From Agromyces salentinus (lineage in GTDB: Bacteria; Actinomycetota; Actinomycetes; Actinomycetales; Microbacteriaceae): a stretch of 64,000 bases of DNA. The notes under the pieces were generated by a model. The model had not been told where the DNA came from and ran no database searches. It saw only the letters and a list, made by a program, of their open reading frames with translations. Position numbers and translations under genes: made by a program. The stretch is from NCBI RefSeq assembly GCF_009749395.1, contig NZ_WBIR01000019.1, positions 1 through 64,000 on the forward strand, in the 5' to 3' direction. Within the stretch, counting starts at the first letter, position 1, and every line of letters begins with the position of its first letter. Below, piece after piece: positions 10,006-36,822 of the stretch.

Positions 10006-12063
10006 GTGACTTCCGTTTCGCGCTCCGAACACGACGACGAGACTCCCGAAGGCACGGGCACGGGGGTGTCTGCCGAGGGGGCCGCGCCAGTCGCGCGCCC
10101 CGGCACGGCAGCAGGCGGCACGTCGGCCAAGCAGCCTGCGGCGAAGCGGCCGGCCGCGAAGGCCTCCGGCACCAGGACGGGGACGCCCAAGACGGCCGCC
10201 GCCGCGCCGGCCGCGGACTCTCCGACTGGGGCCGAGCCGGTCGACGAGACGTCCGCCCAGGCGGGCACCGCGGCAGGAGCGAAGCGCGTGTCGGCGTCGG
10301 CCGGATCGAAATCCGCCGCGACGAAGACCGCCACGGCGAAGTCGGCCGCCTCGAAGCCGGCCGCGTCGAAGACTTCCGCCCCGAAGACCGGCGCGGCGAA
10401 GCCGGCGACTCCGCGATCCCGGTCGAAGGCCGAGACGGGCGCAGCCGAGGCGACCGGGGCCGCCACGGGTGCCGAGCCCGCAGCAGCTCCCGCCTCCAAG
10501 CGCACGCCGGCCTCGCGCGAGGCCTCGGCGGGCGCCGCATCGGCGCGCAGCACCGCGGCCAAGAGCGCACGTGCCACGCGCACCACGGCCAAGGCCGATG
10601 CGCCGAGCGCACGCAGCCGCGCGGCATCCGACGCCGCGAAGAAGCGCCAGACGCAGCGCGTCGCGGCCTCCATGACCACCGACACCACGGCCGCCGAGCG
10701 CGCTCCGCGCAAGCCGTCGGCGGCGCCCTCCCCGAGCAGCGCCCCGATCGACGAGGCCGTGACCGCGGCACCGGCGGTCGACGACGCGGTCGACGAGACG
10801 ACGACCGAGCGCGTTCCGGCCCGCCAGTCCACCTCGCGGGGCACGTCTCGCATCACGAAGGGCGCGGCAGCCGCCGGGGCTGCGGCTGCCGCGTCCGGCG
10901 CTCCTGCAGCCGGCGCTGCCGGTGCCGTGACGCCGCCCGCCGGGCCGGCAGCACGGCCGGCCGGCGCCGAGTCATCGGTGACGGCGTCCGAGCCGCTCGT
11001 CGTCCCGACGCCCGAGCCGATCCCGGCACCTGCTCCCGAGCCCCAGCCGACGCCCGAGCCGGACGTCGTCCCCGCCCCCGAGCCGGTCGTCGTCCCGGAG
11101 CCGGCGCCCGAGCCCGAGCCGGTCGTCGCGGCGGCCGTTGCGGCGGCCCCGGTCGTTGCGGCGGCGTCCACGACGGCGTCGCCCAAGGTCGATCCCGCGG
11201 GCTCTCACGACGTCGCCGTCTCCGTGATCGCCGCTCCGCAGAAGTCGTCGCCGCGCAAGAAGCGCACCCTGCGGGTCGCCCGAGCGGCGCCGCCCGCCGA
11301 CGCGCCGCGCGTGCTCACGATCGACGGGCTCGTCAAGCAGTTCGGCGGCAACACCGCGGTCGACCACATCTCGCTCGACGTGCGAGCCGGCTCCTTCTAC
11401 GGCATCGTGGGCCCCAATGGAGCGGGCAAGACCACGACCCTGTCGATGGTGACCGGGCTCCTGCGTCCCGACGCCGGCACCGTGCGCATCAACGACATCG
11501 ACGCGTGGGCCGATCCGCTCGCCGCGAAGCGTGCGACCGGCGTGCTGCCCGACCGCCTGCGTCTCTTCGACCGGCTCACCGGCGCGCAGTTGCTCTCCTA
11601 CTCCGGCACGCTGCGCGGGCTCGACAACCGCACGGTGCGCGAGCGCAGCGCAGACCTCATCGCGGCCTTCGGCCTGGACGACGCGGTCGACCGACTCGTC
11701 GCCGACTACTCCGCCGGCATGACGAAGAAGATCGCACTGGCCTGCGCCATGATCCACGCGCCGCGCCTGCTCGTGCTCGACGAACCGTTCGAATCCGTCG
11801 ACCCCGTGTCGGCCGCGAACCTCACCGACATCCTCGAACGTTACGTCGCGGGCGGGGGAACGGTCGTGCTCTCCAGTCACGGCATGGACCTCATCGAACG
11901 GGTCTGCGATTCGGCGGCGATCATCGTCGGCGGTCGCGTCCTCGCATCCGGCACCCTCGATGAGGTGCGCGCCGGGCAGACGCTCGAAGACCGATTCGTC
12001 GAACTCGCCGGCGGGCGCAAGGCAGCGGAAGGCATGGAATGGTTGCACAGTTTCTCCGACTGA
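10006..12063 (+). CDS. ABC transporter ATPase with a ~430-residue disordered Ala/Lys/Pro-rich N-terminal extension
   Basis: The last 250 residues are a normal ABC ATPase: Walker A GPNGAGKTT (about 469), signature YSAGMTKKIALA (about 568), Walker B LLVLDEPF (about 588) and switch His in LSSHG. Before it lie some 430 residues rich in Ala, Lys, Thr and Pro with histone-H1-like AAKPAA patterns, then Pro-Glu repeats. Such a tail is not part of the family. GTG 10006 is preferred because TAGGTT (9994-9999) ends six bases upstream. The next gene, a membrane permease, overlaps by 25 bases, so both form one exporter of unknown cargo. Confidence 0.88.
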   Translation: MTSVSRSEHDDETPEGTGTGVSAEGAAPVARPGTAAGGTSAKQPAAKRPAAKASGTRTGTPKTAAAAPAADSPTGAEPVDETSAQAGTAAGAKRVSASAGSKSAATKTATAKSAASKPAASKTSAPKTGAAKPATPRSRSKAETGAAEATGAATGAEPAAAPASKRTPASREASAGAASARSTAAKSARATRTTAKADAPSARSRAASDAAKKRQTQRVAASMTTDTTAAERAPRKPSAAPSPSSAPIDEAVTAAPAVDDAVDETTTERVPARQSTSRGTSRITKGAAAAGAAAAASGAPAAGAAGAVTPPAGPAARPAGAESSVTASEPLVVPTPEPIPAPAPEPQPTPEPDVVPAPEPVVVPEPAPEPEPVVAAAVAAAPVVAAASTTASPKVDPAGSHDVAVSVIAAPQKSSPRKKRTLRVARAAPPADAPRVLTIDGLVKQFGGNTAVDHISLDVRAGSFYGIVGPNGAGKTTTLSMVTGLLRPDAGTVRINDIDAWADPLAAKRATGVLPDRLRLFDRLTGAQLLSYSGTLRGLDNRTVRERSADLIAAFGLDDAVDRLVADYSAGMTKKIALACAMIHAPRLLVLDEPFESVDPVSAANLTDILERYVAGGGTVVLSSHGMDLIERVCDSAAIIVGGRVLASGTLDEVRAGQTLEDRFVELAGGRKAAEGMEWLHSFSD

Positions 12064-24435: not shown

Positions 24436-24545
24436 GCGTTCGTTCCTTCTCATCGTTGAGTGGAGCACTCGTACATCGAGCCCGGGCGTGCAAGAGCTCG
24501 CCCTTCGTGGTCGGTTCCGACCGAAAGCCCCGCTCGGCGTCCGCT

Positions 24546-24565
24546 CCGAGAAAGCGCTTTCTCGG
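24546..24565. promoter_or_regulatory. 20-bp perfect palindrome, LacI-family-type operator
   Basis: CCGAGAAAGCGCTTTCTCGG is an exact palindrome with the central AAAGCGCTTT typical of LacI/GalR operators. It lies between the pectate lyase gene (start 111 bases away) and the divergent tadA (start 116 bases away). The lyase is the likelier target. No LacI gene is in the window. Confidence 0.65.
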
Positions 24566-24680
24566 GCATCTTATGGTGAACGGACGCCTCGACTCAAGGC
24601 CTTCCTCGTATTCGCCTCGGTGGGAGCGGCGTGTGGATAACTTCACGCCCCTCGATCGCGGTCACCCCAAGATGGGGGAC

Positions 24681-25916
24681 ATGACCGACGCCGTGCGCAC
24701 CATCACCGACCGGGTGCGCACCCGTGTCCTTCGGGAGGGCGTCGACCTGTCACGCGACTCGGGCGCCGCGGCGCGCTTCACGCGCGAGGAGGTTCGTCGC
24801 TACAGCGAGCGGGCCCTCGCCGGGGCGCATGCCCAGCTCATCGACGAGCTCGCCACGGTGCGCGACGTCGAGGCGGCGATCACCGGGTACGGGCCGCTGC
24901 AGCCCTTCTTCGACGACCCGGAGGTCGAGGAGATCTGGATTAACGGTCCGACGCGGGTGTTCGTCGCGCGCGACGGCGTCGCCGAACTGACGACCGTGGT
25001 GCTGAGCGACCGCGAGGTCCGAGAACTCGTCGAGCGGATGCTGCAGCACAGCGGTCGCCGCGTGGACCTGAGCTCCCCGTTCGTCGACGCCTCGCTGCCG
25101 GACGGGTCGCGCCTGCACGTGGCGATCCCCGACGTGTCCCGGACGCATTGGGCCGTGAACATCCGCAAGTTCCAGCGCCGCATCCGCACCCTCGACGCCC
25201 TCGTCGGGCTCGGCTCGCTGACCTCCCACGCGGCCGCCTTCCTGAGTGCCGCGGTCACGGCAGGCTCGAACATCCTCGTCTCCGGAGCCACGCACACCGG
25301 CAAGACGACCATGCTGAACGCCCTCATGTCGTCGGCTCGCATCGGCGAGCGCGTGATCACGATCGAGGAGACGTTCGAACTCGACCTCGACGTCCGTGAC
25401 CTGGTGTCGCTCCAATGTCGTCAGCCCAGCCTCGAGGGCACCGGTGAGATCTCGTTGCGACGCCTGATCAAGGAGTCGCTGCGCATGAGGCCCGATCGAC
25501 TCATCGTCGGGGAGGTGCGCGAGGCCGAGAGCCTCGACCTCCTGATCGCCCTCAATTCCGGGCTCCCGGGGATGTGCACGATCCACGCGAACTCGGCGCG
25601 CGACGCCCTGGTGAAGCTCTGCACGCTGCCCCTGCTCGCGGGGCGCAACATCGACGCCGCATTCGTGGTGCCGACGGTCGCCGCGTGCATCGATCTCGTG
25701 GTGCACCTCGGGATCGACGCGGCAGGGCGCCGCAGCGTCATCGAGATCTCGGCGCCGACCGGGGACATCCACCGGGGTGCGGTCGAGGCGGAGTCGATCT
25801 TCGCGACGGTCGACGGCGCCCTTCAGGCCACCGGTGGCCGCCCTCGGCGCGTCGAGAAGTTCACTGGGGCCGGAATCTCGCTGGATCAGCTCCTCGGCGG
25901 GGTGAGCATCGCATGA
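24681..25916 (+). CDS. tadA: Tad/Flp pilus secretion ATPase (TadA/CpaF)
   Basis: Hexameric ATPase powering assembly of a Flp-type pilus at the cytoplasmic membrane. The N-terminal domain (GYGPLQPFFDDPEVEEIWIN, about 74) is typical of CpaF; the catalytic domain has Walker A GATHTGKTTM (about 205), the Asp-box TIEETFELDLDVRDL and Walker B LRMRPDRLIVGEVRE (about 268), then MCTIHANSARDAL. Two in-frame ATGs (24672 and 24681) are possible; the second was taken because GGGGGA lies just before it. It starts the pilus operon, overlapping tadB by four bases. Confidence 0.92.
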   Translation: MTDAVRTITDRVRTRVLREGVDLSRDSGAAARFTREEVRRYSERALAGAHAQLIDELATVRDVEAAITGYGPLQPFFDDPEVEEIWINGPTRVFVARDGVAELTTVVLSDREVRELVERMLQHSGRRVDLSSPFVDASLPDGSRLHVAIPDVSRTHWAVNIRKFQRRIRTLDALVGLGSLTSHAAAFLSAAVTAGSNILVSGATHTGKTTMLNALMSSARIGERVITIEETFELDLDVRDLVSLQCRQPSLEGTGEISLRRLIKESLRMRPDRLIVGEVREAESLDLLIALNSGLPGMCTIHANSARDALVKLCTLPLLAGRNIDAAFVVPTVAACIDLVVHLGIDAAGRRSVIEISAPTGDIHRGAVEAESIFATVDGALQATGGRPRRVEKFTGAGISLDQLLGGVSIA

Positions 25917-26779
25917 GCCTCGTCCTCGGCGCACTTCTCGGGGTGGGCGTCCTCCTCCTGCTCGCGCCCCTGCTCTGGCCGGCGAATCCAGGCATGCGGG
26001 CCTCGAAGGCGTCATCGGTCGGTCGTCGCCTGCACGACGACCTCGCCCTCGCAGGGCTCGGCGACGTGCCCATTCCCGTCGTCGCCATCGTGTGCGGGGT
26101 GGTCTCGATCGCACTCGGAGCGATCGCGCACGCCATCATGCAGGTGCCCACGATCACCGTCGTCGCGGCCCTGCTCGGCGCCGCGGCCGTCCCGCTCGCC
26201 ATCCGCTCGCGCGCCGACCGCCGCCGGGCGTCGAACCGGTCGGTCTGGCCCGACGTGGTCGACCACCTGGTCGCGTCGGTGCGCTCCGGGATGCCGTTGC
26301 CTGAGAGCGTCGGAGCCCTCGGGGTCCTCGGTCCCGCCTCGACCAGGGCTGCGTTCGCGCGATTCGACGCCCAGTACCAGCGCAGCGGCAACTTCGGCCT
26401 CGACCTCGACGAACTGAAGGCGGCGCTCGCGGATCCCGTGGCCGATCGCATCCTCGAGACCTTGCGCATGGCACGAGAGGTCGGCGGCACCGAATTGACC
26501 GCCGTCCTCCGCAGTCTCGCCGGCTACCTCCGGGAGGACGCCGCGCTTCGTGCCGAGGTCGTGTCCCGTCAATCGTGGATCCGCAATGCGGCACGGCTCG
26601 GCGTCGCCGCGCCCTGGGTGCTCCTCGTGGTGCTCTCGTCTCGCCCGGAGACCCTCGCGGCCTACGGTTCGCCGGCGGGTGCGGTGCTGATCGTCGTCGG
26701 CGTCATCGTCACGGTGGCGGCCTACCAGGCGATGACCGCGCTCGGGCGGCTCCCCGAGGAGCGACGATGGTTCCGCTGA
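25913..26779 (+). CDS. tadB: Tad pilus inner-membrane platform protein (TadB-like)
   Basis: Type II secretion F-domain protein forming half of the pilus membrane platform. Hydrophobic helices at about 2-22, 48-65 and 70-88 precede the cytoplasmic F domain (VWPDVVDHLVASVRSGMPLP, about 105; ETLRMAREVGGTELTAVLRS, about 182), followed by two more helices. ATG 25913 overlaps the tadA stop; the stop overlaps tadC by 13 bases. Confidence 0.88.
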   Translation: MSLVLGALLGVGVLLLLAPLLWPANPGMRASKASSVGRRLHDDLALAGLGDVPIPVVAIVCGVVSIALGAIAHAIMQVPTITVVAALLGAAAVPLAIRSRADRRRASNRSVWPDVVDHLVASVRSGMPLPESVGALGVLGPASTRAAFARFDAQYQRSGNFGLDLDELKAALADPVADRILETLRMAREVGGTELTAVLRSLAGYLREDAALRAEVVSRQSWIRNAARLGVAAPWVLLVVLSSRPETLAAYGSPAGAVLIVVGVIVTVAAYQAMTALGRLPEERRWFR

Positions 26780-27714
26780 ACGCGACGGTGGCCCTCTCCA
26801 TGCTGAGCGGAGTCTTGCTGGGGTTGGGTGCCTGGTTCGTCGTGAGCGCGATTCCCCGGATCGGCCGTCCGCGCCTCGCCGAGCGGGTCGCACCGTACGT
26901 GGCCGACTTCTCGGGCGAGGCTCGCGAGGTGCTCGCCCGGCGCCCCGCCGATCCGGCTCCGGTGTTCGGCGTCGTCATGGGACCCGTCCTGCGACGGTTT
27001 CGAGGGCTGCTGACGACCTGGTTCGGCGGTGGCGAGGAGGTCTCGCGACGCCTTCGTCAGGCCGGCGCCGCGCTCAGCGTCGAACGGTTCCGTGGTGAGC
27101 AGTTGGCATGGGGAGGCGTCGCATTCGCCATCGCCACGGCGCTCGCCGTCTGGGCGCCCGGTTTCGCGACGGTACCCCTTCCCGTTCGGGTGGCGGTGCC
27201 GGCGCTCGCTGCAGCGGGCGGGGTCGTGGCGCGCGACTGGATGCTGCAGCGCAGTGTTCGGCAGCGCAAGGCTCGCATCTCGGACGAACTGCCGACCGTG
27301 CTCGAGTTCCTGACGCTCAGCCTCACCGCCGGTGAGAGCATGCTCGACGCCGTCCGACGTGTCGCCCGAACCGGGTCGGGCGAACTCTCCGGCGAATTCT
27401 CCGTCGTCGTCTCCGCCGTGGGCGCGGGCGTGCCGCTCTCCGTCGCGATCAGGCGCCTTCGCGACGACCTGGATCACGCGGCGCTGTCCCGTGCCCTCGA
27501 TCAGGTGCTCGGCGCCCTCGATCGGGGTGCGCCCCTTTCGGCGGTCCTCGCCTCGCAGGCCGGTGACGCCAGGGAGCAGGCCAAGCGCACGATCATCGAG
27601 CTCGCCGGGCGCAAGGAGATCGCGATGCTCGTGCCGCTCGTGTTCCTCATCCTCCCGATCACGATCGCCTTCGCGCTCCTGCCCGGGTACCTCGTCCTCC
27701 AGGCCGGCTTCTGA
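26767..27714 (+). CDS. tadC: Tad pilus inner-membrane platform protein (TadC-like)
   Basis: Second F-domain platform protein. It has an N-terminal helix (8-30), a soluble stretch, two helices near 120-160, and the F domain with ELPTVLEFLTLSLTAGESML (about 174) and LDQVLGALDRGAPLSAVLAS (about 245), ending in one long helix (PLVFLILPITIAFALLPGYL). Sixty bases separate it from the next, broken, gene. Confidence 0.88.
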   Translation: MVPLNATVALSMLSGVLLGLGAWFVVSAIPRIGRPRLAERVAPYVADFSGEAREVLARRPADPAPVFGVVMGPVLRRFRGLLTTWFGGGEEVSRRLRQAGAALSVERFRGEQLAWGGVAFAIATALAVWAPGFATVPLPVRVAVPALAAAGGVVARDWMLQRSVRQRKARISDELPTVLEFLTLSLTAGESMLDAVRRVARTGSGELSGEFSVVVSAVGAGVPLSVAIRRLRDDLDHAALSRALDQVLGALDRGAPLSAVLASQAGDAREQAKRTIIELAGRKEIAMLVPLVFLILPITIAFALLPGYLVLQAGF

Positions 27715-27774: not shown

Positions 27775-27885
27775 ATGCGCAAGCTGTTCTCGAGGCCCGA
27801 CCTGATCGGCGACGAACGGGGGGACGTGCCCGGATGGGTGCTCATCACATTGATGACCGCCGGCCTGCCCGTCGTAGCGCTCTAG
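27775..27885 (+). pseudogene. 5' part of a small Tad-operon membrane protein, cut by the integrative element
   Basis: ATG 27775 follows AAAGGAAC by eight bases. The frame reads MRKLFSRPDLIGDERGDVPG then a hydrophobic start (WVLITLMTAG) and should continue past base 27867, but the element joins here and the frame ends at TAG 27883. Joined to 35416-35497 it gives an uninterrupted 57-residue protein with one membrane helix, placed between tadC and the tadE-like gene where Flp pilins or small pilus proteins usually lie. Now it would make a 36-residue product. Confidence 0.85.
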
Positions 27886-27892
27886 GGGTAAT
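27840..27892. other. attL of the integrative element
   Basis: Host sequence up to the crossover CT at 27865-27866, then the right phage arm (27868-27892). This arm is a reverse-complement match at 21 of 25 positions to the left arm at attR (35388-35412), both one base from the core. Confidence 0.88.
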
Positions 27893-27952
27893 CGCCCCTG
27901 CTTCCGAGGTAAATCGGGGCCCGTAGATGGTCAGATCGCTGCCCGCGCGGGG

Positions 27953-29221
27953 CTATGCCTTGGTCGGAATGGCAAGGTCCTTTTCCTCCGGACTCGCCCA
28001 GCGCAGGTAGTACGCGAAGTACGGATCAACGAGGTCGAGGCGGGAGTACTCGATGCTGTACTCCAGCACCGGCTCCCCTTCGATCTTCGTCTTTGCGATG
28101 TCCGTCATCTGATCGAGCACGTTCGTGATCTCGTTGCTCTGAGGCATGCCTGACGCCAGAAGGTCTCGAAGGGACGCTCGAATCTCGTCGTAGCTGAGCG
28201 TCGTTCGAGGCCCGGTGTTTGCGATCGCCGCCAATACGGCGCCATAGATGTCGGTTACGACACCAGATTTGAGCGTTCGCGGCAGCCGGTCCCTTCTCGT
28301 TCGCGGGCCGTTCTTGAGCAGGTCGAAAGCCGACTTCGACGTCGCGGACGCCTGCTTCTCGAAGAAGCTCGGCCAGTCAGGCTCGATGAAGGCTGCTCGG
28401 AGCACACCGCCTTCTCGATTCACCTTGCAGAGGTTCAGGCAGTGCATCTGCATGAGGTGGGGGCTACCGAAACTCTCATTCGCCAGCTTGAGGCTGATGG
28501 CGTCATCCACCGTTACTCCGAGCGCTGCGAAGCCCTGCGAAGCGATCAGCTGAAGGTCCTCTACGCTCCACTGAGCTACCGGGAACGGGGTGACGCGACC
28601 GGTCATCTCCTTCTCGACGCGAACCACGTCGTACGCGCGGTGCGGGACAGCAGCGACAACGACGCCGAGGCCATCGAAGATCAGATCCTTCAACCCGCGA
28701 ATGATCGGCAACTGCTGGTCCGGGGGAATGTAGTGGAAGTCGTCGATGTAGATCACGCGCTTCGTCTTGCGAAGCGCAGCGCGAGCGGCGCTTCGAGAAC
28801 TCGCCGTACGCGATCGCGTCACTCCGCGGCCAGTCGAACGGTCGTTCTGGGTGCTCGCTGCGCCTTGGACGAACCCGGCGCTGGCACCGCCCGTCATTCC
28901 GAATCCGTCAGTATCCTCTGTCGACAAAGACAGCGAGTGGTCGGTGAAGACTTCGAGTTCTTCGCAGACCGATTCCCAGAAATCTTCGGCAGTTTCGATT
29001 GCGCCCCCCGACAGCAGGATGGGATCGGGGACCAAGCGGCGAATCAGGACAGTCTTGCCCGATTTCGTCGGTCCGGACACGGCCAGGAGCGGCTTCTGGC
29101 GGCCCTCCAGCCAATCGGCCAGCGCCTCTTCAAGGTTCAGGTGATCGCGTGAAACGTAGGTCTCGATGGGAAGTCCACCTGGGATGAACACATCGTCGGG
29201 GCGTGGCGGCATAGTGCCCAT
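27953..29221 (-). CDS. AAA/P-loop ATPase of unknown function, cargo of the element
   Basis: A 422-residue protein with Walker A GPTKSGKT (about 50), Walker B VIYIDDFHYI (about 155) and a sensor-like stretch GVVVAAVPHRAYDVVRVEKE (about 185). The C-terminal 200 residues (LAAIANTGPRTTLSYDEIRA, DLVDPYFAYYLRWA) look like the winged-helix tail of STAND/ORC-type ATPases: a DPYFAYYLRW ending is common there. No nuclease or protease domain is visible. It is clearly more AT-rich than the host genes and sits at the element end opposite the integrase, a usual place for cargo such as defence genes. ATG 29221 or 29212; a distant GTG was rejected. Confidence 0.65.
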   Translation of the reverse strand: MGTMPPRPDDVFIPGGLPIETYVSRDHLNLEEALADWLEGRQKPLLAVSGPTKSGKTVLIRRLVPDPILLSGGAIETAEDFWESVCEELEVFTDHSLSLSTEDTDGFGMTGGASAGFVQGAASTQNDRSTGRGVTRSRTASSRSAARAALRKTKRVIYIDDFHYIPPDQQLPIIRGLKDLIFDGLGVVVAAVPHRAYDVVRVEKEMTGRVTPFPVAQWSVEDLQLIASQGFAALGVTVDDAISLKLANESFGSPHLMQMHCLNLCKVNREGGVLRAAFIEPDWPSFFEKQASATSKSAFDLLKNGPRTRRDRLPRTLKSGVVTDIYGAVLAAIANTGPRTTLSYDEIRASLRDLLASGMPQSNEITNVLDQMTDIAKTKIEGEPVLEYSIEYSRLDLVDPYFAYYLRWASPEEKDLAIPTKA

Positions 29222-29324
29222 ACTGATGGTTCGCGGCGCGTCGCTCCAACATCGGCGCGCCGCGCACCCGGAGATCAGCGTCATAGAGGCCGTGGACGGG
29301 GTCAGTCGGCAAGTGCATCGATAG

Positions 29325-29582
29325 TTACGACCAGTGCTGCCGATAGCGCTCGGGATGCTCGGCGAACTCCACGAGGACGGCCACGCGGTCCTCGTGGTCG
29401 GTGTGCAGTTCGAGACTCATCGGCTTGCCCGTTCTCGGGTGCGGCGCAATGGCCTCGAAGAACGGCAGGCGAGCGCCGGTGAGATGCTTCTGCTCGATCC
29501 AGCCGAGCCGCCGCCCGTCGTGCCAGACCTCCCAGCGGGCGATGACGCCGCGAGGGGCGGTGACGGGTCGAAGGTCGGGCAC
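29325..29582 (-). CDS. Small hypothetical protein of the element
   Basis: Frame of 85 residues, GTG 29582, with a compact pattern (ARWEVWHDGRRLGWIEQKHL, then HPRTGKPMSLELHTDHEDRV) that looks like a folded beta-rich domain. No family recognised. It follows the zinc-cysteine protein gene by 32 bases on the same strand. Confidence 0.6.
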   Translation of the reverse strand: MPDLRPVTAPRGVIARWEVWHDGRRLGWIEQKHLTGARLPFFEAIAPHPRTGKPMSLELHTDHEDRVAVLVEFAEHPERYRQHWS

Positions 29583-29614
29583 GATGCCAGCGTGGCGCCG
29601 ACCACCGACACTGG

Positions 29615-30730
29615 TCAGGCGTGCGGCGGGACCGGGAGCAGCGCTCGGAGTTCGGCGGCGGCGGACTCGGAGAGGTGCGAGGCGAGGGCGTCGAGAGCCT
29701 TCCTTGCGGCGTCCGGGTCCGGCGGCAGCGGTTGGCCGAGTAGTGCCGCCGTCGAGGCGTCGGAAGCGACGAGGTGCGCCCACGGGGTCGGGTTCGGTTT
29801 CCGGCGGCCGGCCACGGCCCACGCGCGCAGCCTGTCGAGTTCGAGGCCACGGCTGCCTCTCGTGCCGTCCGGATCGAAGTGGGCGAACACCGAGCGTTCG
29901 AGCAGCGTCGGGCCGACCGACCCCACGGCCTCGTAGACGGCGGAGTCCGCTGGGCAGAGGTGGCCCTCGATGTGGTTCGGTCCTCGGCCACCGAGCGCGA
30001 TGATCGATGCGCGGAACGAGGACCATGTGCCGCCAGCCTCGGCGTCGGCGACGCCGCAGAGCACGCAGCCCGAGCCGTCTGGGCAGGAGACTCGGCCGCG
30101 TGGCCGGGGGATCGAGGCGCGGCGCTTGGCGAGTAGCGCAGCCCGCCACGCCCGATGCGAGGTGACGGCGTTCTCGTGCGCCTCGGGGAGCAGGTGCGCC
30201 CATGGCCTCGACGCGCACGTGCTCGGGTCCCCGCCTCGGTGAACGGGGGAGTAGATCTCGGACCAGTCGGCGATGCCGCCGAGCCCGAGCCGGTTCGTCA
30301 GCGTTGCCACGTCGTCATCGTCCATGACCGGATCGGTGAGCGGATCCCCGAGGGCGTCGAGGCGGAACAGGGCGACTCGGATGCGATCAGCGAGGATGCC
30401 GCCGACCCGAGCGGCGACGGCCGGGTGCGCGGCGTACAGCGTGGCGGCGCGGTCGAGTGTGGCCGCGCAGGTCGAGCAGGTCGCGAACTCGATCATGCGG
30501 GGCGGATCGGCTCGGCCGGGTTCGCCGGGGCGTGGCGGTCCGCCCCAAGCGTCGGCGCGCGCATGGGCCTCGGCGACGGTGCGCTTCCATGCCTCGGCCT
30601 CGGCGATCTGGGGGCGGTAGCCGTGCGAGGGCATCGCTTCGATGCGTGCAGCGTCGGCAGGGTGAACGGCTCGGCCGCAGTAGCGGCAGGCGAGGGCGTC
30701 GGCGGGCAGTGGGCGCAGGTAGGTCGTCAT
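29615..30730 (-). CDS. Cysteine-rich hypothetical protein of the element
   Basis: 371 residues with three CxxC units: CRYCG (about 15), CSTC (about 85) and CVLCG (about 222), which suggests two zinc sites. The middle holds RIRVALFRLDALGDPLTDPV and the end is helical. Such proteins recur in actinobacterial phages and integrative elements without known role. ATG 30730; the gene starts 14 bases after the next upstream small gene ends. Confidence 0.7.
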   Translation of the reverse strand: MTTYLRPLPADALACRYCGRAVHPADAARIEAMPSHGYRPQIAEAEAWKRTVAEAHARADAWGGPPRPGEPGRADPPRMIEFATCSTCAATLDRAATLYAAHPAVAARVGGILADRIRVALFRLDALGDPLTDPVMDDDDVATLTNRLGLGGIADWSEIYSPVHRGGDPSTCASRPWAHLLPEAHENAVTSHRAWRAALLAKRRASIPRPRGRVSCPDGSGCVLCGVADAEAGGTWSSFRASIIALGGRGPNHIEGHLCPADSAVYEAVGSVGPTLLERSVFAHFDPDGTRGSRGLELDRLRAWAVAGRRKPNPTPWAHLVASDASTAALLGQPLPPDPDAARKALDALASHLSESAAAELRALLPVPPHA

Positions 30731-30744
30731 CGTGGCTCCGGTCG

Positions 30745-30978
30745 TCAGAATCGGTTGAGGGCGTCGGCGTCGAGATCCTGCCAGTGCTTCCGGCTGGGAT
30801 CGCGTAGTGGCGGGCTCGGATCCGTGGTGGTCGCCGCGACCGGCTTCGGGCGGGGCTTCGGAGGCGGTGTTCGCGCGGCGCGGGCGGCCTCGGCCTCGAC
30901 TCGTTCGCGCTCGGCTTGCTCGGCGAGCGAGCGGGCCAGGAGGTGGCTCGCCGACTGCGCTGGACGGGCTCGGATCAT
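30745..30978 (-). CDS. Small charged protein of the element
   Basis: 77 residues, Ala/Arg/Glu-rich helix (LARSLAEQAERERVEAEAAR) then a Pro-Lys stretch and RKHWQDLDADALNRF. Its ATG overlaps the upstream stop (ATGA). No known family; a coiled-coil or DNA-binding helper is possible. Confidence 0.6.
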   Translation of the reverse strand: MIRARPAQSASHLLARSLAEQAERERVEAEAARAARTPPPKPRPKPVAATTTDPSPPLRDPSRKHWQDLDADALNRF

Positions 30979-31364
30979 GGTGTGTCCTTCCATGCCTCGG
31001 GGTCGATGAACCACCGATGCTCGGTCCCGGTGAATCTCGTGATGCAGTGCCGGTCGTGGTCGAGCCTGATCGTGACCGGCAGCCGCCACCAAGCCACCGG
31101 TGTGACCTCGGGGTCGAGGCTGATCTCGGCGACCTGATCGCAGAACCGACAGGTGCCGGTGAAGCCGCTCTCGATGCGCAGCCAGTACCGGGCGAGCACG
31201 TCGGCCGGTGCGTCGCGGCGGAGCGTCGGCAGATGCACCCATGCGTCGCCGTGATGCCAGAGCGTCCAGCCGGGGCGGACGGTGCTGGCGCTCACCTCGG
31301 CCGGGGTGATCCCGGTGGCGGCGTCGAGCGCGGCGACAGCGGCGGCTCGGTCATCGGCGCTCAC
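30975..31364 (-). CDS. Hypothetical protein of the element with CxxC
   Basis: 129 residues, GTCRFCDQVAEI (about 90) with one CxxC and a His-rich tail (LDHDRHCITRFTGTEHRW) that could complete a metal site. Four-base overlaps on both sides place it in a translationally coupled string. No function assigned. Confidence 0.62.
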   Translation of the reverse strand: MSADDRAAAVAALDAATGITPAEVSASTVRPGWTLWHHGDAWVHLPTLRRDAPADVLARYWLRIESGFTGTCRFCDQVAEISLDPEVTPVAWWRLPVTIRLDHDRHCITRFTGTEHRWFIDPEAWKDTP

Positions 31365-31642
31365 AATGCCTCCACGTCGTAGGCGCTCGGGTGCTCGTCG
31401 GCAGCGGCGAAGTAGTCGGCGGCGAGGCGCTGCTGCTCGCGCTCGATGTCGCGCCCGTGGGCATCCCGGTAGGCCTCGATGCGTCGTTCGCGCCGGATGC
31501 GGTCGGCAGCCTCGGCGAGCGGATCGTTGAACGCGATACGCGGAACTTCCATGGGGTCAGGAAGCTCCATGGACCCCGCTGGCCGAATCGCGTTTCGAAG
31601 TCGTCCATGGGATCGGGGTCGTCCATGGGATCGAGCGCTCAT
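31361..31642 (-). CDS. Small helical protein of the element
   Basis: 93 residues when started at ATG 31642, which overlaps the upstream stop like its neighbours. The conserved-looking part is PLAEAADRIRRERRIEAYRD to AYDVEAL; the first 35 residues are encoded by a repeated stretch (15-base direct repeat at 31601-31615 and 31619-31633) and may be variable. A shorter start at ATG 31552 is possible. Confidence 0.55.
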   Translation of the reverse strand: MSARSHGRPRSHGRLRNAIRPAGSMELPDPMEVPRIAFNDPLAEAADRIRRERRIEAYRDAHGRDIEREQQRLAADYFAAADEHPSAYDVEAL

Positions 31643-32169
31643 CGCATCGTCCAATCGTCGTCAGGGTCGAGGTCGAACAGGGCGGGCTCGACCGGGGGAG
31701 AGATCGGGGCTGGCGCTCGCCGAGATCGAGCGCGCAGAGCGTCGTAGGACCGATGGCAGGACGAGCAGAGCGGGCGGTAGTCCCGGAGGTCGGTCGAGAA
31801 TGTCACCGCCCTCCCGGACGCGTTCCTGCCCTCGACCGGAGCCCGGCAGGGGTAGCACGCCCACGCGGTCGCCGGGCGCTCGTTGCAGATGATGCATCGG
31901 TGCCGGGAGGCCGAGCCGCGCTCGCGGTGGAGGCGGCTATGGATCGCCGTGTAGGTGGTCGAGGCGTAGCAGGTGGCGAGGCCGACGATCTCGGCCGACC
32001 CGAACCGAGGTTCGAGTCTCGACGCTAGGAGGCCCGTAGGAGCGTCGAAGACACGTCTGCCCCCAACTACACTGGGGCGGGCTCGTTCGGCCGGGAGCGG
32101 GCCGCCTACGGCCGGAGAGACTGGGGTCTGGGTGACGGTGTGCATCGATGGATCACGGTTCCGTCTCAT
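31639..32169 (-). CDS. HNH/zinc-finger-like protein of the element
   Basis: 176 residues with RCIICNERPATAWACYPCRAP (two CxxC-type pairs) followed by DYRPLCSSCHRSYDALRARS, the arrangement seen in HNH-type endonuclease or recombination-associated zinc proteins. The catalytic HNH His is not certain (CSSCHRSYD). ATG 32169 overlaps the upstream gene by 17 bases; ATG 32145 is the alternative. Confidence 0.6.
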   Translation of the reverse strand: MRRNRDPSMHTVTQTPVSPAVGGPLPAERARPSVVGGRRVFDAPTGLLASRLEPRFGSAEIVGLATCYASTTYTAIHSRLHRERGSASRHRCIICNERPATAWACYPCRAPVEGRNASGRAVTFSTDLRDYRPLCSSCHRSYDALRARSRRAPAPISPPVEPALFDLDPDDDWTMR

Positions 32170-32374
32170 CGCACTCGCAGCCCTCGGCGTCCGGCGCTGG
32201 TTCGCGGTCGATCACGTAGCCTGCGGCACGACCTGCCGCGATGGCGATCGCAGCCACCTCGTCGTAGCCACGAGCGCCCCAGCGGTCGAGGTACGCCGAG
32301 AGCATGGAGCCCATCTCGATGGTGTCGACCAGGGCCTCGTGATCATCCAGCAACCACGCTTCATGGCTCTGCAT
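32153..32374 (-). CDS. Small acidic protein of the element
   Basis: 73 residues: an amphipathic helical part (DDHEALVDTIEMGSMLSAYL) and an acidic C-terminus with CECD. It overlaps the initiator-like gene by 14 bases. No family recognised. Confidence 0.55.
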   Translation of the reverse strand: MQSHEAWLLDDHEALVDTIEMGSMLSAYLDRWGARGYDEVAAIAIAAGRAAGYVIDREPAPDAEGCECDETEP

Positions 32375-33431
32375 GAGACGCCTCCCGCAGGGTCGAGTTC
32401 GGCAGTGGGTCTCGCGCCCCTCGCATGTCGGCCGCGCAGCCGGAGCAGTAGCCGGAGGGTTCGATCTTCGAGTGTGAGCACGACGAGCGACGCTTCCAAG
32501 CCCGAGCAGCGGAGAGGACTTCCGCGAGCGCATCGAAGTCCCCGTCGCTGGTGTCGTTCCTCGCCAGCGCGGACATGCGTCGAAGTTCGGTATGGAAGTA
32601 GTCGCCAGCGTCGTAGGTCAGCGCATCGGCGTCGATGAACTCGATGATCAGCGCAGCGTCGTCTTGAGTGAACTCGACGTCATCGCCACTGGGGCGAAGG
32701 TCGAGGATCACCTCATCAGGCTTCGCTTCCGACCGGTCTGCCAGTCTGAGCAGCATCTCCGAGATCGCCGCACGGCGATCCTTCCTGAGGTCGTAGGACG
32801 CCGGGGGAGCGTCCTCAATCGCGACAAGGCCGTCTGGTGTGCGGCGGTCGCCGTATGGGGCGCGCTTCGGCACTTCGGGAGCATCGATCTCGGCGGGCGC
32901 ATCACCCTCATCGCGAAGCGCATCGCGATTCGCGGAGGGGGGTTGATCTTGATCTTCCTCCTGATGTTCCTCCTTAGAACCTCCTTGGGTCCCCAATGCG
33001 TGGGGACCATTCTCCGAATCAGTGGGGACCATTCCCGAATCAGTGGGGACCTTTCCCGAATGAGTGGGGACCTTCTTCTCAGCGCGTTTGGTCCCCACTG
33101 GTTCGGGGGCTTCCAGTCCCGGCCGCAGCGGCTCGCCGTGTTCATCGCGGAGGGCATACACAGCCGCCCCCGAAGCGTTGCCACCACCGATCTGGTCGAT
33201 CACGCCCGCCTTCGAAAGCACCCCGGTGGCGTACTCGACGGCCTTGATCCCAGCCGCGTTCTCCTGCTTGCCAAGCGCGCGGGTTCGTTGAGCCATCGTC
33301 AGCACCGCCCACGGCTCGGGGTCGTCATCGAGGGCTCTCAGCGCCATGCGGGCGTATAGGCGCATCGGGACGGCGGCGAGCCCGATCCGTGCACCGACCT
33401 CGTATGCGGAGAGGGTGAGCCCTGCGCCCAT
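32361..33431 (-). CDS. Replication-initiator-like winged-helix protein with internal repeats
   Basis: 356 residues. The first 100 (YEVGARIGLAAVPMRLYARM, VEYATGVLSKAGVIDQIGGG) look like a winged-helix DNA-binding domain of the type in plasmid and phage initiator or primosome proteins. A low-complexity middle (about 112-150) is encoded by 21-bp direct repeats that read VPTDSGM-like units. The C-terminus has CSHSKIEPSGYCSGC, a probable zinc ribbon. It overlaps genes on both sides. Alternative: a transcription regulator. Confidence 0.6.
   Translation of the reverse strand: MGAGLTLSAYEVGARIGLAAVPMRLYARMALRALDDDPEPWAVLTMAQRTRALGKQENAAGIKAVEYATGVLSKAGVIDQIGGGNASGAAVYALRDEHGEPLRPGLEAPEPVGTKRAEKKVPTHSGKVPTDSGMVPTDSENGPHALGTQGGSKEEHQEEDQDQPPSANRDALRDEGDAPAEIDAPEVPKRAPYGDRRTPDGLVAIEDAPPASYDLRKDRRAAISEMLLRLADRSEAKPDEVILDLRPSGDDVEFTQDDAALIIEFIDADALTYDAGDYFHTELRRMSALARNDTSDGDFDALAEVLSAARAWKRRSSCSHSKIEPSGYCSGCAADMRGARDPLPNSTLREASHAEP
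32988..33107. repeat. Iteron-like direct and inverted repeats inside the initiator-like gene
   Basis: Four direct copies of a 21-bp unit with GTGGGGACC as the invariant core (near 32999-33019, 33020-33040, 33041-33061 and 33062-33082), plus inverted copies at 32988-32995 (paired with 33001-33008 across five bases) and 33090-33107. The period of 21 bp keeps reading frame and puts copies two helix turns apart. Confidence 0.7.
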
Positions 33432-33562
33432 CAGATGTACCGCCCGAGGATCGCGGCGATGCGCTCGGCCCGCTCGTCCGTGATCGGGGGAGCCTCGGCA
33501 AGGGCGCGTGCGACGAAGGCGGCGCGTTCCTCGGCGACGGTGGTGTCGAGGTTGGCGCTCAT
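33431..33562 (-). CDS. 43-residue hypothetical protein of the element
   Basis: Not long, but bounded by coupled overlaps on both sides (ATGA with the upstream gene, TGATG with the downstream one). Sequence is helical and charged (AEERAAFVARALAEAP, DERAERIAAILGRYI). No family. Confidence 0.5.
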   Translation of the reverse strand: MSANLDTTVAEERAAFVARALAEAPPITDERAERIAAILGRYI

Positions 33563-33774
33563 CGCGGCTTCACCGCAGCGGCGAGGTCACTGGCTCGGAC
33601 GCGCAGATCGCGGGGCCCGAGTCGGACGGCGAGAAGGTGGCCGTCTCGGATCCACCGCTTGATGGTCTCGGGGTGCTTGCCGGTGCGGGCTGCGACCTCG
33701 CGGACGGTCAGGAGTTCGAGCGGATCGTTGCCGAGTCGGACAGTGGGGAGGTTGGGGGTGTGGGTTCTGGGCAA
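33559..33774 (-). CDS. Excisionase/MerR-like HTH DNA-binding protein
   Basis: 71 residues matching the helix_turn_helix_17 pattern: LLTVREVAARTGKHPETIKRWIRDGHLLAVRLGPRDLRV. Such proteins serve as recombination directionality factors or repressors in actinobacterial elements. First gene of the leftward operon, separated from the integrase by 126 bases that would hold its promoter and controls. Confidence 0.85.
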   Translation of the reverse strand: MPRTHTPNLPTVRLGNDPLELLTVREVAARTGKHPETIKRWIRDGHLLAVRLGPRDLRVRASDLAAAVKPR

Positions 33775-33900
33775 GGCGTCTCCGAAGAGCGGGACCGGGG
33801 TCCGGGTCCCTCACGGCTTGCCTTTCAACTGCTGCTAACTGTACCCGATATGTCGCCGCATAAATAGCCTCTGATCGGGGTATTAGTCACTTGAACAACG

Positions 33901-35379
33901 TTAGGCGACGGTGGCAGTCCCTGCTTCGAGTTCAGCGTCGCCGTCGAGCCAGCTGAACTTGATGCGGCCGAGGTCGGGGATCGGCTGGCCGTTCTTGTCG
34001 TGTGGGCGGCGGCCGGGGCGGCCCTTGCCAACCGTGACGATGAGGCCAAGCTCCTCGATCACGCGGCGCTGCTCCAGCAGGGGCATCCGGTTCCATGCGC
34101 GCTCGACCGAGCGGGCGAGCACGAGGTCGGTCAGCGGGCTCTCGCGCCGCATCGCACCGAGGCGGGCGGCGAGGGCATCGATCCGCTCCGACAAGCCGGT
34201 GACCTGGGCTCGGGCTCGGCGGCGATCGAGAAGGCCGTCAGCGAGCAGGTCGGTGACATCGGCGCGGCGCTTGCGGAGGTCGGCAAGCTCCTTCTCGACC
34301 GGCTCGGTATCCGGGGTCTTCCGGAGGCTCCTGAGCACCTTCTTGTCCGAGAGGTGCGCCACGATGAACTCGTTCACGGCGGGCTCGATGTCCCGAGTGA
34401 GGATCGAGACGCACCAGCCGGTCGTGCAGGTGTAGGTGAGCCGCATGTGCGCAGCCCGGTCGGCACCCCGGCGATGGGTCTCGGGTCGAGCGAGCATCCG
34501 CGATCCGCAGACACCGCAGCGGAGCAGGCCGCTCAGGAGGTGCTTCGTCTTGGTGCTCCATGAGCCTGCTCGGGCTCGGCCTTCGCGCGTCTCGATGTAG
34601 TCGCTCCACGTTCGCGCATCGATCAGCGGCTCCCACTGCGGGGCCACGTTGATCGGCTGGCCCTTGTACGAGACGATGCCCGCGTAGTGCTCGTTGCGGA
34701 GCAGTTGCTGCACTCGGGCCATCGACCACGGCCCGCCGAAGGTCGGCACGCCGCGCTCGTTCCAGTCATTCGCGATGGCGTAGTAGGAGTCGCCCTCGAT
34801 GTACCTGCGGTAGCCTTCGCGGACGATCGCCGCCTCGGACTCCACAACGGTGACCTCGGTCTGGCCCTTCTCGCGGAGGTACCCGTACGGCCGGTTGCTG
34901 AAGTGCCAGTGCCCGCTCTCGGCGCGCTGGATGTTCGAAGCCTTCTGCCGGAGCGCCTTCTGCTCGCCCTCGTATTGGCTCCATGCCGCGACCGTGCGGG
35001 CGACGGCGCGGCCGGCCGGGGTCGAGAGGTCGAGGCTGCCAGCGGTGACCATGAAGACCGGCACCTCCTGTGCGATGACCTTCTCCAGATCGCTTGTGAG
35101 GCGCAGGAGGCGGTCTTGGTGCCACGCGACGATCGCCTCGGGGCGGTCGCGAAGCATCGCCTCGAATGCAGGCCGGGCCTTGCCGTTGGTCGCCGAGATG
35201 TCGTTGTCGATGTAGACCTTCGTCACGGTCAGGCCTTGGCGTGCAGCGAGTTCGCGGCAGTCCTTCCGCTGGCGCTCGACGCCGAGTTGCTGACCGGTGC
35301 GGTCCTGCGAGATGCGCAGGTAGATGACGCAGGTCTCGGGACCGATGGCGTCGAGGCTGGGGTGGGAGTAGCGAGTCAC
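33901..35379 (-). CDS. Large serine integrase (site-specific recombinase)
   Basis: Catalyses attP x attB integration through a 5'-phosphoserine link. The resolvase domain has the catalytic Ser24 in CVIYLRISQDRTGQQLGVER, followed by AWHQDRLLRLTSDLEKVI and SQYEGEQKALRQKAS; the recombinase domain has PYGYLREKG and WNERGVPTFGGPWSMARVQQ (about 230); the zinc ribbon has LLRCGVCGSRM (about 305) and TCTTGWC, then a long coiled coil (about 375-440). GTG 35379 lies only 34 bases from the attR core, as is usual. It reads leftward, away from attR. Confidence 0.95.
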   Translation of the reverse strand: MTRYSHPSLDAIGPETCVIYLRISQDRTGQQLGVERQRKDCRELAARQGLTVTKVYIDNDISATNGKARPAFEAMLRDRPEAIVAWHQDRLLRLTSDLEKVIAQEVPVFMVTAGSLDLSTPAGRAVARTVAAWSQYEGEQKALRQKASNIQRAESGHWHFSNRPYGYLREKGQTEVTVVESEAAIVREGYRRYIEGDSYYAIANDWNERGVPTFGGPWSMARVQQLLRNEHYAGIVSYKGQPINVAPQWEPLIDARTWSDYIETREGRARAGSWSTKTKHLLSGLLRCGVCGSRMLARPETHRRGADRAAHMRLTYTCTTGWCVSILTRDIEPAVNEFIVAHLSDKKVLRSLRKTPDTEPVEKELADLRKRRADVTDLLADGLLDRRRARAQVTGLSERIDALAARLGAMRRESPLTDLVLARSVERAWNRMPLLEQRRVIEELGLIVTVGKGRPGRRPHDKNGQPIPDLGRIKFSWLDGDAELEAGTATVA

Positions 35380-35387
35380 TTCCAGAT

Positions 35388-35440
35388 AATACCCCCAGAG
35401 CGATAGGACGGGGCTGGTCATCGTGATCTGGGGGCTCGCC
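35388..35440. other. attR of the integrative element
   Basis: Left phage arm at 35388-35412, crossover CT at 35414-35415, then host sequence that resumes the broken gene in frame (LVIVIWGLAGPALEG). Confidence 0.88.
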
Positions 35441-35497
35441 GGCCCGGCCCTCGAGGGCGTGTTCGAGCAGGCGATCGATCGGGTCACCGGATTCTGA
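35414..35497 (+). pseudogene. 3' part of the small Tad-operon membrane protein
   Basis: Reads LVIVIWGLAGPALEGVFEQA and on to IDRVTGF, then TGA 35495-35497. This is the second half of the helix and the short C-terminus of the gene cut at 27867. It has no start codon of its own. Confidence 0.85.
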
Positions 35498-35562: not shown

Positions 35563-35916
35563 GTGGCGGAGTTCACGCTCGTCGGCGTGCTGCTCGTCCT
35601 GCTCGCGCTCGCCGTCGTGCAGTTGGCGCTCTCGCTCCACGTCCGCAACACGCTGCTCGACGCCGCGGCGGAGGGTGCCAGGTTCGCCTCGCTCGCCGGT
35701 GCATCGTCCGCCGAGGGCGTGCAGCGCACCCGGGACCTCATCGATGCGGCGATCGCGTCTTCGTACGCCGAGGACGCGACCGCTGCCACGGTCTCGATCT
35801 CGGGCGTGCCGGCCATCGAGATCAGGGTTCGGGCGACGCTCCCGGTCATCGGCCTCCTCGGCCTCGCGAACGGACTGGAGGTCGCCGGGCATGCGCCGAT
35901 CGAAGCGGTGGAGTGA
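35563..35916 (+). CDS. TadE-like pilus assembly protein
   Basis: Pseudopilin-type membrane protein: hydrophobic helix (FTLVGVLLVLLALAVVQLAL) right at the start, then an alpha region (NTLLDAAAEGARFASLAGAS) typical of TadE. GTG 35563 is the only canonical start, but codons upstream stay open and read ERGSAVAEF, a prepilin-peptidase-like G-x4-E site that would be lost from this start. Translation may begin at CTG 35494 or ATT 35491, coupled to the upstream stop. Its end overlaps the next gene. Confidence 0.78.
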   Translation: MAEFTLVGVLLVLLALAVVQLALSLHVRNTLLDAAAEGARFASLAGASSAEGVQRTRDLIDAAIASSYAEDATAATVSISGVPAIEIRVRATLPVIGLLGLANGLEVAGHAPIEAVE

Positions 35917-36373
35917 GCGACACCCCGAGGGCGGTGCGAACCCGCTGGCCGAGGAATCCGGCTCGGCATCGCTGGAGTTCCTGACGGTCGGCCTCCTCCT
36001 GCTCGTCCCCATCGTCTACCTGGTGCTCAGCGTCGCCGCCATCCAGGCCGGAGCCTTCGCCGTCGAAGGCGCGGCTCGCCACGCCGCGCGCATCGTCGCC
36101 GACGGCGGCGGCTCAGGCGACGATGCGGCTGCAGTCGATCGCGCGGTCCGCATGATCCTCGACGACTACGGCGTCGACGATGCCGCGGCGAGGGTGGCCA
36201 TTCTCTGCGAGACGCCGGCCTGCGACCGGGCCGGCGAACGCGTCGAGGTCACGGTGAGTGCACGGATACCGCTTCCGCTCGTGCCCGATGTATTCGGCTC
36301 CCAGCCGGTGGCGAGCGTTCCGGTCGATGCGATGGTGACCCAGACGGTGTCGCGGTTCGCGGGCGCGAGATGA
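35891..36373 (+). CDS. TadE-like pseudopilin protein
   Basis: 160 residues with a charged leader ending EESGSASLEFLTVG, where Glu at +5 after Gly fits the prepilin-peptidase site, then a helix (LLLLVPIVYLVLSVAAIQAG) and a soluble domain with two cysteines (ILCETPACDRAG). ATG 35891 overlaps the preceding gene by 26 bases; its stop overlaps the next start. Confidence 0.82.
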   Translation: MRRSKRWSERHPEGGANPLAEESGSASLEFLTVGLLLLVPIVYLVLSVAAIQAGAFAVEGAARHAARIVADGGGSGDDAAAVDRAVRMILDDYGVDDAAARVAILCETPACDRAGERVEVTVSARIPLPLVPDVFGSQPVASVPVDAMVTQTVSRFAGAR

Positions 36374-36822
36374 CCACGGCACGTCGTCTCGATCGCCGCA
36401 TTCGCGATGACGGCGGCTCGACGCTGCTCATCACGATCTTCCTCTCCATGCTCGCGATCATGATCGTCTTCGTCGTGGTTGCCGCCTCCTCGCTCTACCT
36501 CGAGCGGAAGCGGCTCTTCACCCTTGCCGACGGCGCGGCGCTCTCGGGCGCCGAGGCCTGGAGCCTCGACCAGGTGAGCCTCGATGGCGATGCACTCGAT
36601 CTCGAGCTCGATTCGCAGGCGGTGCACCGAGCTGTCGCGTCGTACCTTTCCGACGCCGGTGCGCCTGCCGCAACGGTCGAGCTCGTGGAGGCCGCCTCGC
36701 GCGACGGTCGAAGTGCGACGGTCACGCTCCGAACCGAGTGGCATGCGCCGATCTCGACCGACCTCCTCCCGATCGCCGTACCGATCGAGGTCACGACGAC
36801 CGCCCGCTCGGTGTTCCATTGA
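36370..36822 (+). CDS. TadG/Flp-type membrane protein
   Basis: 150 residues with DDGGSTLLITIFLSMLAIMI (about 13) as membrane anchor, then ERKRLFTLADGAALSGAEAW, a pattern of putative Flp-pilus-assembly TadE/G-like proteins. It is the last gene of the interrupted operon. Confidence 0.82.
   Translation: MTTARRLDRRIRDDGGSTLLITIFLSMLAIMIVFVVVAASSLYLERKRLFTLADGAALSGAEAWSLDQVSLDGDALDLELDSQAVHRAVASYLSDAGAPAATVELVEAASRDGRSATVTLRTEWHAPISTDLLPIAVPIEVTTTARSVFH

Follow-up and report, generated by a model that had tools for sequence, protein, structure and literature searches.

Why should a mobile element settle in a 57-codon gene of a pilus cluster, and what might it gain there? The question is raised by a stretch of 64,000 nucleotides from Agromyces salentinus (NCBI RefSeq assembly GCF_009749395.1, contig NZ_WBIR01000019.1, positions 1 to 64,000 of the forward strand), referred to here as the window. 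In it, an integrated element of 7,549 bp with a large serine integrase divides a small gene between tadC and tadE of a tad (Flp) pilus cluster. The first-pass annotation of this DNA had recognised the element, of 7.55 kb, and proposed that its insertion may switch piliation off. The element is borne out by the analysis below; the piliation switch is not supported as stated. Related elements also lie in dprA, comEC, comM and ssbB, none of which belongs to the pilus. The best reading of the locus is probably that the element disarms natural transformation by inserting into one of its genes.

The insertion is precise. When the 5′ part of the split gene (27775..27867, + strand) is joined to the 3′ part (35417..35497, + strand), an uninterrupted 57-codon frame is restored, confirming that the two frames meet at a shared CTG, and relatives carry the same gene whole. 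In place, the frame from 27775 runs into a TAG at 27883-27885 and is 36 codons long, as had been predicted for the shortened product. The element itself occupies 27868..35416, with ends ambiguous by the shared CTG. Both attachment (att) sites can be rebuilt from its junctions. The attP-derived arms at attL (27868..27892) and attR (35388..35412) are inverted copies identical at 21/25 positions, the value first claimed for them, while the best of 200,000 random 25-mer pairs drawn from the window matched at 19/25. The best symmetry centre of the rebuilt attP is the arm centre, with 22/30 positions, and the runner-up centre reaches 13/30. Large serine integrases use near-palindromic attP arms around a 2-bp core; attL and attR have only CTG in common, attB is unlike attP beyond the core, and from the att comparison CT (27865-27866 at attL, 35414..35415 at attR) is the likely core within it. 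The attB site thus lies, as proposed, inside a gene of the tad cluster.

The closest integrases, from Microbacterium sp. H83 (L002, 65% identity) and Bi121 (L003, 64%), have inserted into this gene at the identical pair of codons. When seven insertions in the 57-codon gene were aligned by eye, six had the core CT and one, L003, had TT. The arms of the sister element in H83 match at 19/25 around CT (20/25 for the window by the same measure), and symmetry was weaker, at 9 to 16 of 25, in the five other elements whose arms were compared (L003, L058, L059, L060, L066). The far junction of the Bi121 element (L003:17384-17530) shows weak arm symmetry (16/25) and the TT core, unlike its sister in H83. 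The integrase adjoins the 3′ half of the gene in the window, whereas those of H83 and Bi121 adjoin the 5′ half. In serine integrases the central dinucleotide alone sets orientation, and the opposite orientations of the window and H83 elements fit this rule, with a core that, seen from the integrase, reads AG for the window element but CT for that of H83.

Comparison of the junction in genomes without the element had been set beforehand as the test that could overturn this reconstruction. The joined 57-residue protein was searched in 60 genomes of the genus, the window genome included, and matched in 53. All 52 others are uninterrupted across the junction, so that 52/59 other genus genomes carry the gene whole, and only the window genome, among those matched, holds it as two separate halves. 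Seven genomes of the genus gave no match (G011, G012, G017, G027, G040, G049, G050). All of the 30 empty-site loci fetched read through the site to a stop, and 27/30 are of the same length. Across the family Microbacteriaceae the gene was matched in 279/398 genomes and is split in at least 10 (G000, which is the window genome, G068, G136, G295, G333, G288, G356, G417, G418 and G442); only the 3′ half was seen in G442, while G356 and G417 have phage tail genes between halves separated by ~39 and ~42 kb, respectively. In a further genome of the same genus, a relative of the integrase lies ~130 bp from a whole 57-codon gene (G016:C1:2162188-2163275), as in the tadC-type insertions described below.

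The gene order around the site is tadA-tadB-tadC-57-codon gene-tadE, followed by two more tad-like open reading frames (ORFs). The 57-codon product has no Pfam or NCBIfam match; it has one hydrophobic stretch, judged by eye, and its length falls within the 50-80 residues of Flp prepilins. The split gene was considered as the canonical Flp major pilin and rejected as such: the prepilin processing site G/XXXXE[YF] is absent from its product, and a second tad cluster in the window genome holds a pilin frame with GAATAEY (L284; G000:C11, around 10156-10935). The window cluster resembles tad-1 of Micrococcus luteus, in that both have a small gene without the canonical site. Transformation of M. luteus depends on both tad clusters and on ComEC: it was abolished when comEC, or any ORF of the two clusters other than tadB, was deleted, polar effects being possible (Angelov et al., 2015, PMC4322843).

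Insertion sites of related integrases were examined in eight loci of named genomes, one viral contig and 15/398 family genomes (E ≤1e-60, the window genome included). In addition to H83 and Bi121, relatives lie in the 57-codon gene (L055, L058, L059, L060, L066), in the 3′ end of tadC (L061-L065, L007, L008), in tadA (L068), in dprA (L004, L056, L057), in comEC (L067) and in the second single-stranded DNA-binding protein (SSB) gene, ssbB (L069). L006 is the same contig as L064 and was excluded from the trees. Pfam searches of six fragments beside integrases confirmed DprA, ComEC (Competence), SSB, ComM (Mg_chelatase) and TadA (T2SSE). The contig of L008 (JACEFY010000046.1) is deposited under Stenotrophomonas maltophilia but looks like contamination, since its tad genes are actinobacterial and accompanied by a tadC-type element.

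The family was then surveyed by the Recombinase domain (PF07508), so that loci were not chosen by similarity to the window integrase. At E ≤1e-8 the domain was found in 135/398 genomes and in at least 150 places, of which 148 were examined, the other two of the 150 lying inside L124 and L126. Flanks were compared with 13 reference genes drawn from the window or elsewhere in its genome, and the script scored a place where one of these genes, truncated on the side towards the integrase, lay no more than 320 bp from it. This gave 31/148 (dprA 8, tadA 8, 57-codon gene 6, tadC 3, comEC 3, comM 2, ssbB 1), against a length-based chance expectation of 0.39 for random sites. Two of those scored as dprA (L152, L247) actually sit at the 3′ end of comM beside dprA, and one scored as tadA (L172) concerns the copy in the second tad cluster. 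The E-value filter of the script missed three tadC splits (L061-L063), with both tadC halves at the element ends, and four more places emerged when flanks were compared with the second tad cluster: three in its canonical Flp pilin gene (L221, L228, L233) and one in its tadA (L209, with the integrase ~800 bp away). In total, 38/148 places adjoin a truncated gene of the transformation pathway, with an expectation of ~0.5 when the second cluster is counted. An insertion at the 3′ end of comM that leaves the gene nearly whole (L198) was excluded. Nine of the 159 rows compared lacked an integrase ORF by phmmer (L123, L125, L127, L185, L192, L226, L230, L236, L250); L230 and L236 were assigned an integrase place by hand for the count. 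Two integrases that are >90% identical, L164 and L172, lie at equal distance from the tadA of the first and of the second cluster respectively, and one specificity seems to serve both paralogues.

A control without chosen genes, in which flanking frames were clustered by similarity alone, yielded 38 clusters, 17 of them with at least three loci. The largest chromosomal ones were the Tad locus (10 loci), tadA (8), dprA (7) and comEC (3), and most of the remaining clusters look element-borne by eye (ArdA-like, IS3-like, phage-like). This stricter clustering was used in place of a tblastx version in which roughly half of the loci fell together, probably because of noise from high GC content. At the level of the order, 63/396 genomes, family members included, hold a relative of the integrase at E ≤1e-30. 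The 25 outside-family loci examined are the best-scoring relatives, not a random sample, and exclude L304 and L309, which belong to the same family; 14/25 adjoin tadA (L290, L292, L296, L298, L300, L302, L308), tadC (L287, L293, L306, L307, L311), the Flp pilin (L294) or comM (L299), of which 13/25 are clear, as L300 retains only a ~40-residue tadA remnant.

Targets are concentrated in one pathway. In a FastTree of 146 integrases the window falls in a clade of 23 (support 100), and 21/23 of its members lie in transformation genes (57-codon gene 8, tadC 8, dprA 3, comEC 1, ssbB 1). Target labels require 21 changes on this tree, compared with at least 40 in 1,000 shuffles, and each target is struck by separate clades (57-codon gene 7, tadA 6, comEC 3, tadC 2, dprA 2, comM 2, ssbB 1). 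A quick IQ-TREE of 65 rows joins the window to L002 and L003 (SH-aLRT 98), then to the dprA group (99) and next to a 13-row clade (96) that includes comEC and ssbB; from the nested order of the 57-codon, dprA and comEC/ssbB groups it follows that targets changed within the pathway. Branch orders at open forks and around long rows (L264, L268, L211, L304) are unsure, and for labelling L209, L221, L228 and L233 stand as other, as does L294 in the 65-row tree.

Elements other than that of the window also divide their targets, with both halves at the two element ends in tadA (L270; L271 with L256), dprA (L272, L273), comEC (L067) and others; for L206/L279 the distant half of dprA is found ~9.4 kb past the integrase. 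Double insertions occur in three genomes: in the 57-codon gene and tadA of G068, in dprA and comM of G084, and in the 57-codon gene and ssbB of G418. The comM-dprA operon of G084 (L272, G084:C1:1117000-1136900) holds two neighbouring serine-integrase elements, of which one interrupts dprA and the other sits at the 3′ end of comM.

The function common to all these targets would be natural transformation, in which dprA and ssbB have roles as well. An explanation by pili only was rejected, given the insertions in dprA, comEC, comM and ssbB: loss of the pilus alone is insufficient, because these are not pilus genes. In the mechanism proposed here, the integrase would recombine attP with attB at CT in the 57-codon gene of the tad-1-type cluster. 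The insertion costs the product its C-terminal 26 residues, adds five from the element and parts tadE-G from tadA-C; assembly of the DNA-uptake pilus, and DNA uptake with it, would be lost. Blocking transformation would favour the element, since a cell that transforms can exchange an occupied site for an empty one: DNA from uninfected kin, once taken up, would recombine across the site and delete the element. An element seated in a transformation gene would thus protect itself. The integrase clade has switched between targets several times but mostly remained within the pathway, on which other serine-integrase lineages converge.

Several points weigh against this account. The capacity of these hosts for transformation is presumed by analogy with M. 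luteus, the role of the 57-codon gene in it from its place in the cluster, and the M. luteus gene Mlut_07530 is likened to it by cluster position. Two members of the window clade are not placed in the pathway: L005 lies beside polA, by eye, and L009 has no assigned target gene. Outside the family 11/25 loci, and within it 110/148 places, were not assigned to the pathway. The chance estimate assumes random sites, while integrases depend on conserved sequence and are confined to genes that the host can spare. The control, too, brought up other recurrent flanks by eye: a luciferase-like monooxygenase beside four integrases that are >90% identical (L173, L178, L180, L196), a TauE-like gene at three loci, and ABC-F-, LytR-type- and oligoribonuclease-like genes at pairs of loci. 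The unassigned places and the recurrent other genes favour an account in which integrases merely settle in conserved yet dispensable genes, so that no benefit from blocking transformation is needed, and the sites do lie in conserved codons of conserved genes. We nevertheless regard this as unlikely: at least seven genes of one pathway, at unlinked loci, are struck by many integrase lineages, whereas the other recurrent genes are few, belong to different pathways and reach at most four loci each, and clades that switch gene remain in the pathway.

A regulatory switch, in which conditional excision would restore the gene and turn the pilus or competence on, is reminiscent of active lysogeny at comK in Listeria, where the prophage integrase is also a serine integrase. 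The frame-perfect insertion and an excisionase-like helix-turn-helix (HTH) gene beside the integrase would suit it, but precise insertion is a general property of serine integrases, no excised form was seen in the single assembled genome, and cargo differs between relatives, with 2/8 window genes matched; we consider such a switch rather improbable. Removal of a pilus that serves as phage receptor, by which a resident element would exclude superinfecting phages, might be suggested by the large elements with phage tail genes that also occupy the 57-codon gene (L264-L267). With dprA, comEC, comM and ssbB, none of them a pilus gene, struck by the same or neighbouring integrase clades, this seems very unlikely. 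An artefact of assembly or gene prediction is scarcely conceivable, draft genome of 40 contigs or not, given that the window lies inside a 95-kb contig, that integrase, att arms and gene halves are coherent, and that there are independent parallels in named genomes.

Disarming of transformation by insertion has precedents in other phyla. Insertion in com genes as self-protection has been argued for elements in comYC, comFA, comK and comM (Croucher et al., 2016, PMC4774983). The prophages and islands described there, in comYC, comFA, comK, comM and comEC of Firmicutes and Proteobacteria, are likewise site-specific and lie in the coding sequence of transformation genes; they too occupy orthologous sites in several species, and related integrases strike different genes (PMC4774983). 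The present case differs from them in its hosts (Actinomycetes, with Tad/Flp pili), in the use of large serine integrases, in the involvement of both tad clusters together with dprA and ssbB, and in the spread of one clade over five genes of the pathway. The Listeria comK prophage is alike in its precise insertion in a competence gene (PMC4774983); here, in contrast to active lysogeny, there is no sign of regulated excision, and no virion genes were recognised in the window element. For comM of Acinetobacter it has also been put forward that blocking transformation favours the inserted element (PMC11472951). In Acinetobacter baumannii, AbaR and further elements likewise sit in a transformation gene, comM, and often carry defence systems, as do some elements here, but there Tn7-like and other elements meet at one gene, whereas serine integrases are found here at many genes (PMC11472951). 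The work on Flp/Tad-dependent transformation of M. luteus concerns host genetics, and its treatment of the tad clusters does not discuss mobile elements (Angelov et al., 2015, PMC4322843). Among the titles listed by keyword searches of the open-licence full-text literature, none reports the pattern in Actinobacteria.

The integrase of the window element (33901..35379, − strand, 492 residues) has all three expected domains over the Pfam cut-off (Resolvase 2.8e-21, Recombinase 3.6e-15, Zn_ribbon_recom 1e-05), matches the integrase family phrog_95 (E 2.6e-99) and is the sole Recombinase-domain match in its own genome at a threshold of E 0.001. Next to it lies the small HTH protein, a candidate excision factor (33559..33774, − strand; HTH_17 1.7e-09, TIGR01764 excise 2.9e-10), which also has a weak terminase-small match (E 0.026). 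The other ORFs described here are also on the − strand. That at 27953..29284, next to attL, encodes a P-loop ATPase of TniB/AAA-like type (Pfam AAA_22 1e-05 and TniB 2.7e-04, both below cut-off) and resembles the candidate defence family PDC-S59 (PADLOC, E 2.7e-23). ORFs of 371 residues (29615..30730) and 356 residues (32361..33431) gave no family in Pfam, PHROG, NCBIfam and PADLOC scans; the latter is possibly a replication protein, a guess from its N-terminal sequence. The ORF of 129 residues (30975..31364) has a single weak relative, in L002 (24% identity), and that of 176 residues (31639..32169), with CxxC pairs, belongs to a phage family of unknown function (phrog_4160, E 1.4e-15) and is presumably HNH-like, by eye, with no Pfam match. 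Among the 10 element ORFs scanned against Pfam and PHROG there was no fitting match to virion or packaging families, and the element was rejected as a prophage. A cargo common to related elements was likewise rejected: of the eight window element genes compared, matches were found only for the excisionase-like gene (in L059) and the 129-residue ORF (in L002), each in one relative.

Upstream of the split gene, on the + strand, are the pilus ATPase gene tadA (24456..25916, T2SSE, E 2.4e-39, ORF start mechanical), tadB (25916..26779, T2SSF, E 4.1e-06) and the ORF holding tadC (26575..27714, T2SSF, E 1.6e-13), whose true start is probably near 26788. The part now separated from them comprises tadE and two tad-like ORFs (35563..36822, + strand; TadE 3.3e-09, Tad 1.9e-08): a pilin-like ORF called tadF by place (35915-36373, + strand, no Pfam match over cut-off) and a tadG-like ORF (36370-36822, + strand), which is the last of this part. 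Other elements carry cargo as well: L064 has PDC-S53, L270 a ThsA-like SIR2 protein, L273 a restriction-modification pair and L272 a methyltransferase; five of the 10 proteins scanned for defence cargo had no match. Helicase or primase genes are found in L058, L061 and L002. Tail tape-measure genes occur in L059 and L066, elements of only 13-14 kb that are perhaps very small phages or satellites, while matches to a major head protein and to a tape-measure protein were obtained in L268 and L269, respectively.

A wider statement appears reasonably likely, namely that across Actinomycetes serine-integrase elements, both small and phage-like, evolve attB sites within the transformation pathway, so that a map of their insertions reads out the genes of the machinery. 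If this is true, one clade would have moved among the 57-codon gene, tadC, dprA, comEC and ssbB, other lineages would have converged on tadA, the Flp pilin, dprA, comEC and comM, and both tad clusters, the 57-codon protein and SsbB would act in taking up or processing DNA in organisms well outside Micrococcus. A conflict of mobile elements with transformation that is known in other phyla would extend to Actinomycetes with Tad pili, and the insertions, gathered from many genomes, offer indirect evidence for Tad pili as DNA-uptake pili outside Micrococcus too. The survey also supplies several integrases whose target genes are defined, and the uncharacterised 57-residue protein is nominated as part of the uptake machine.

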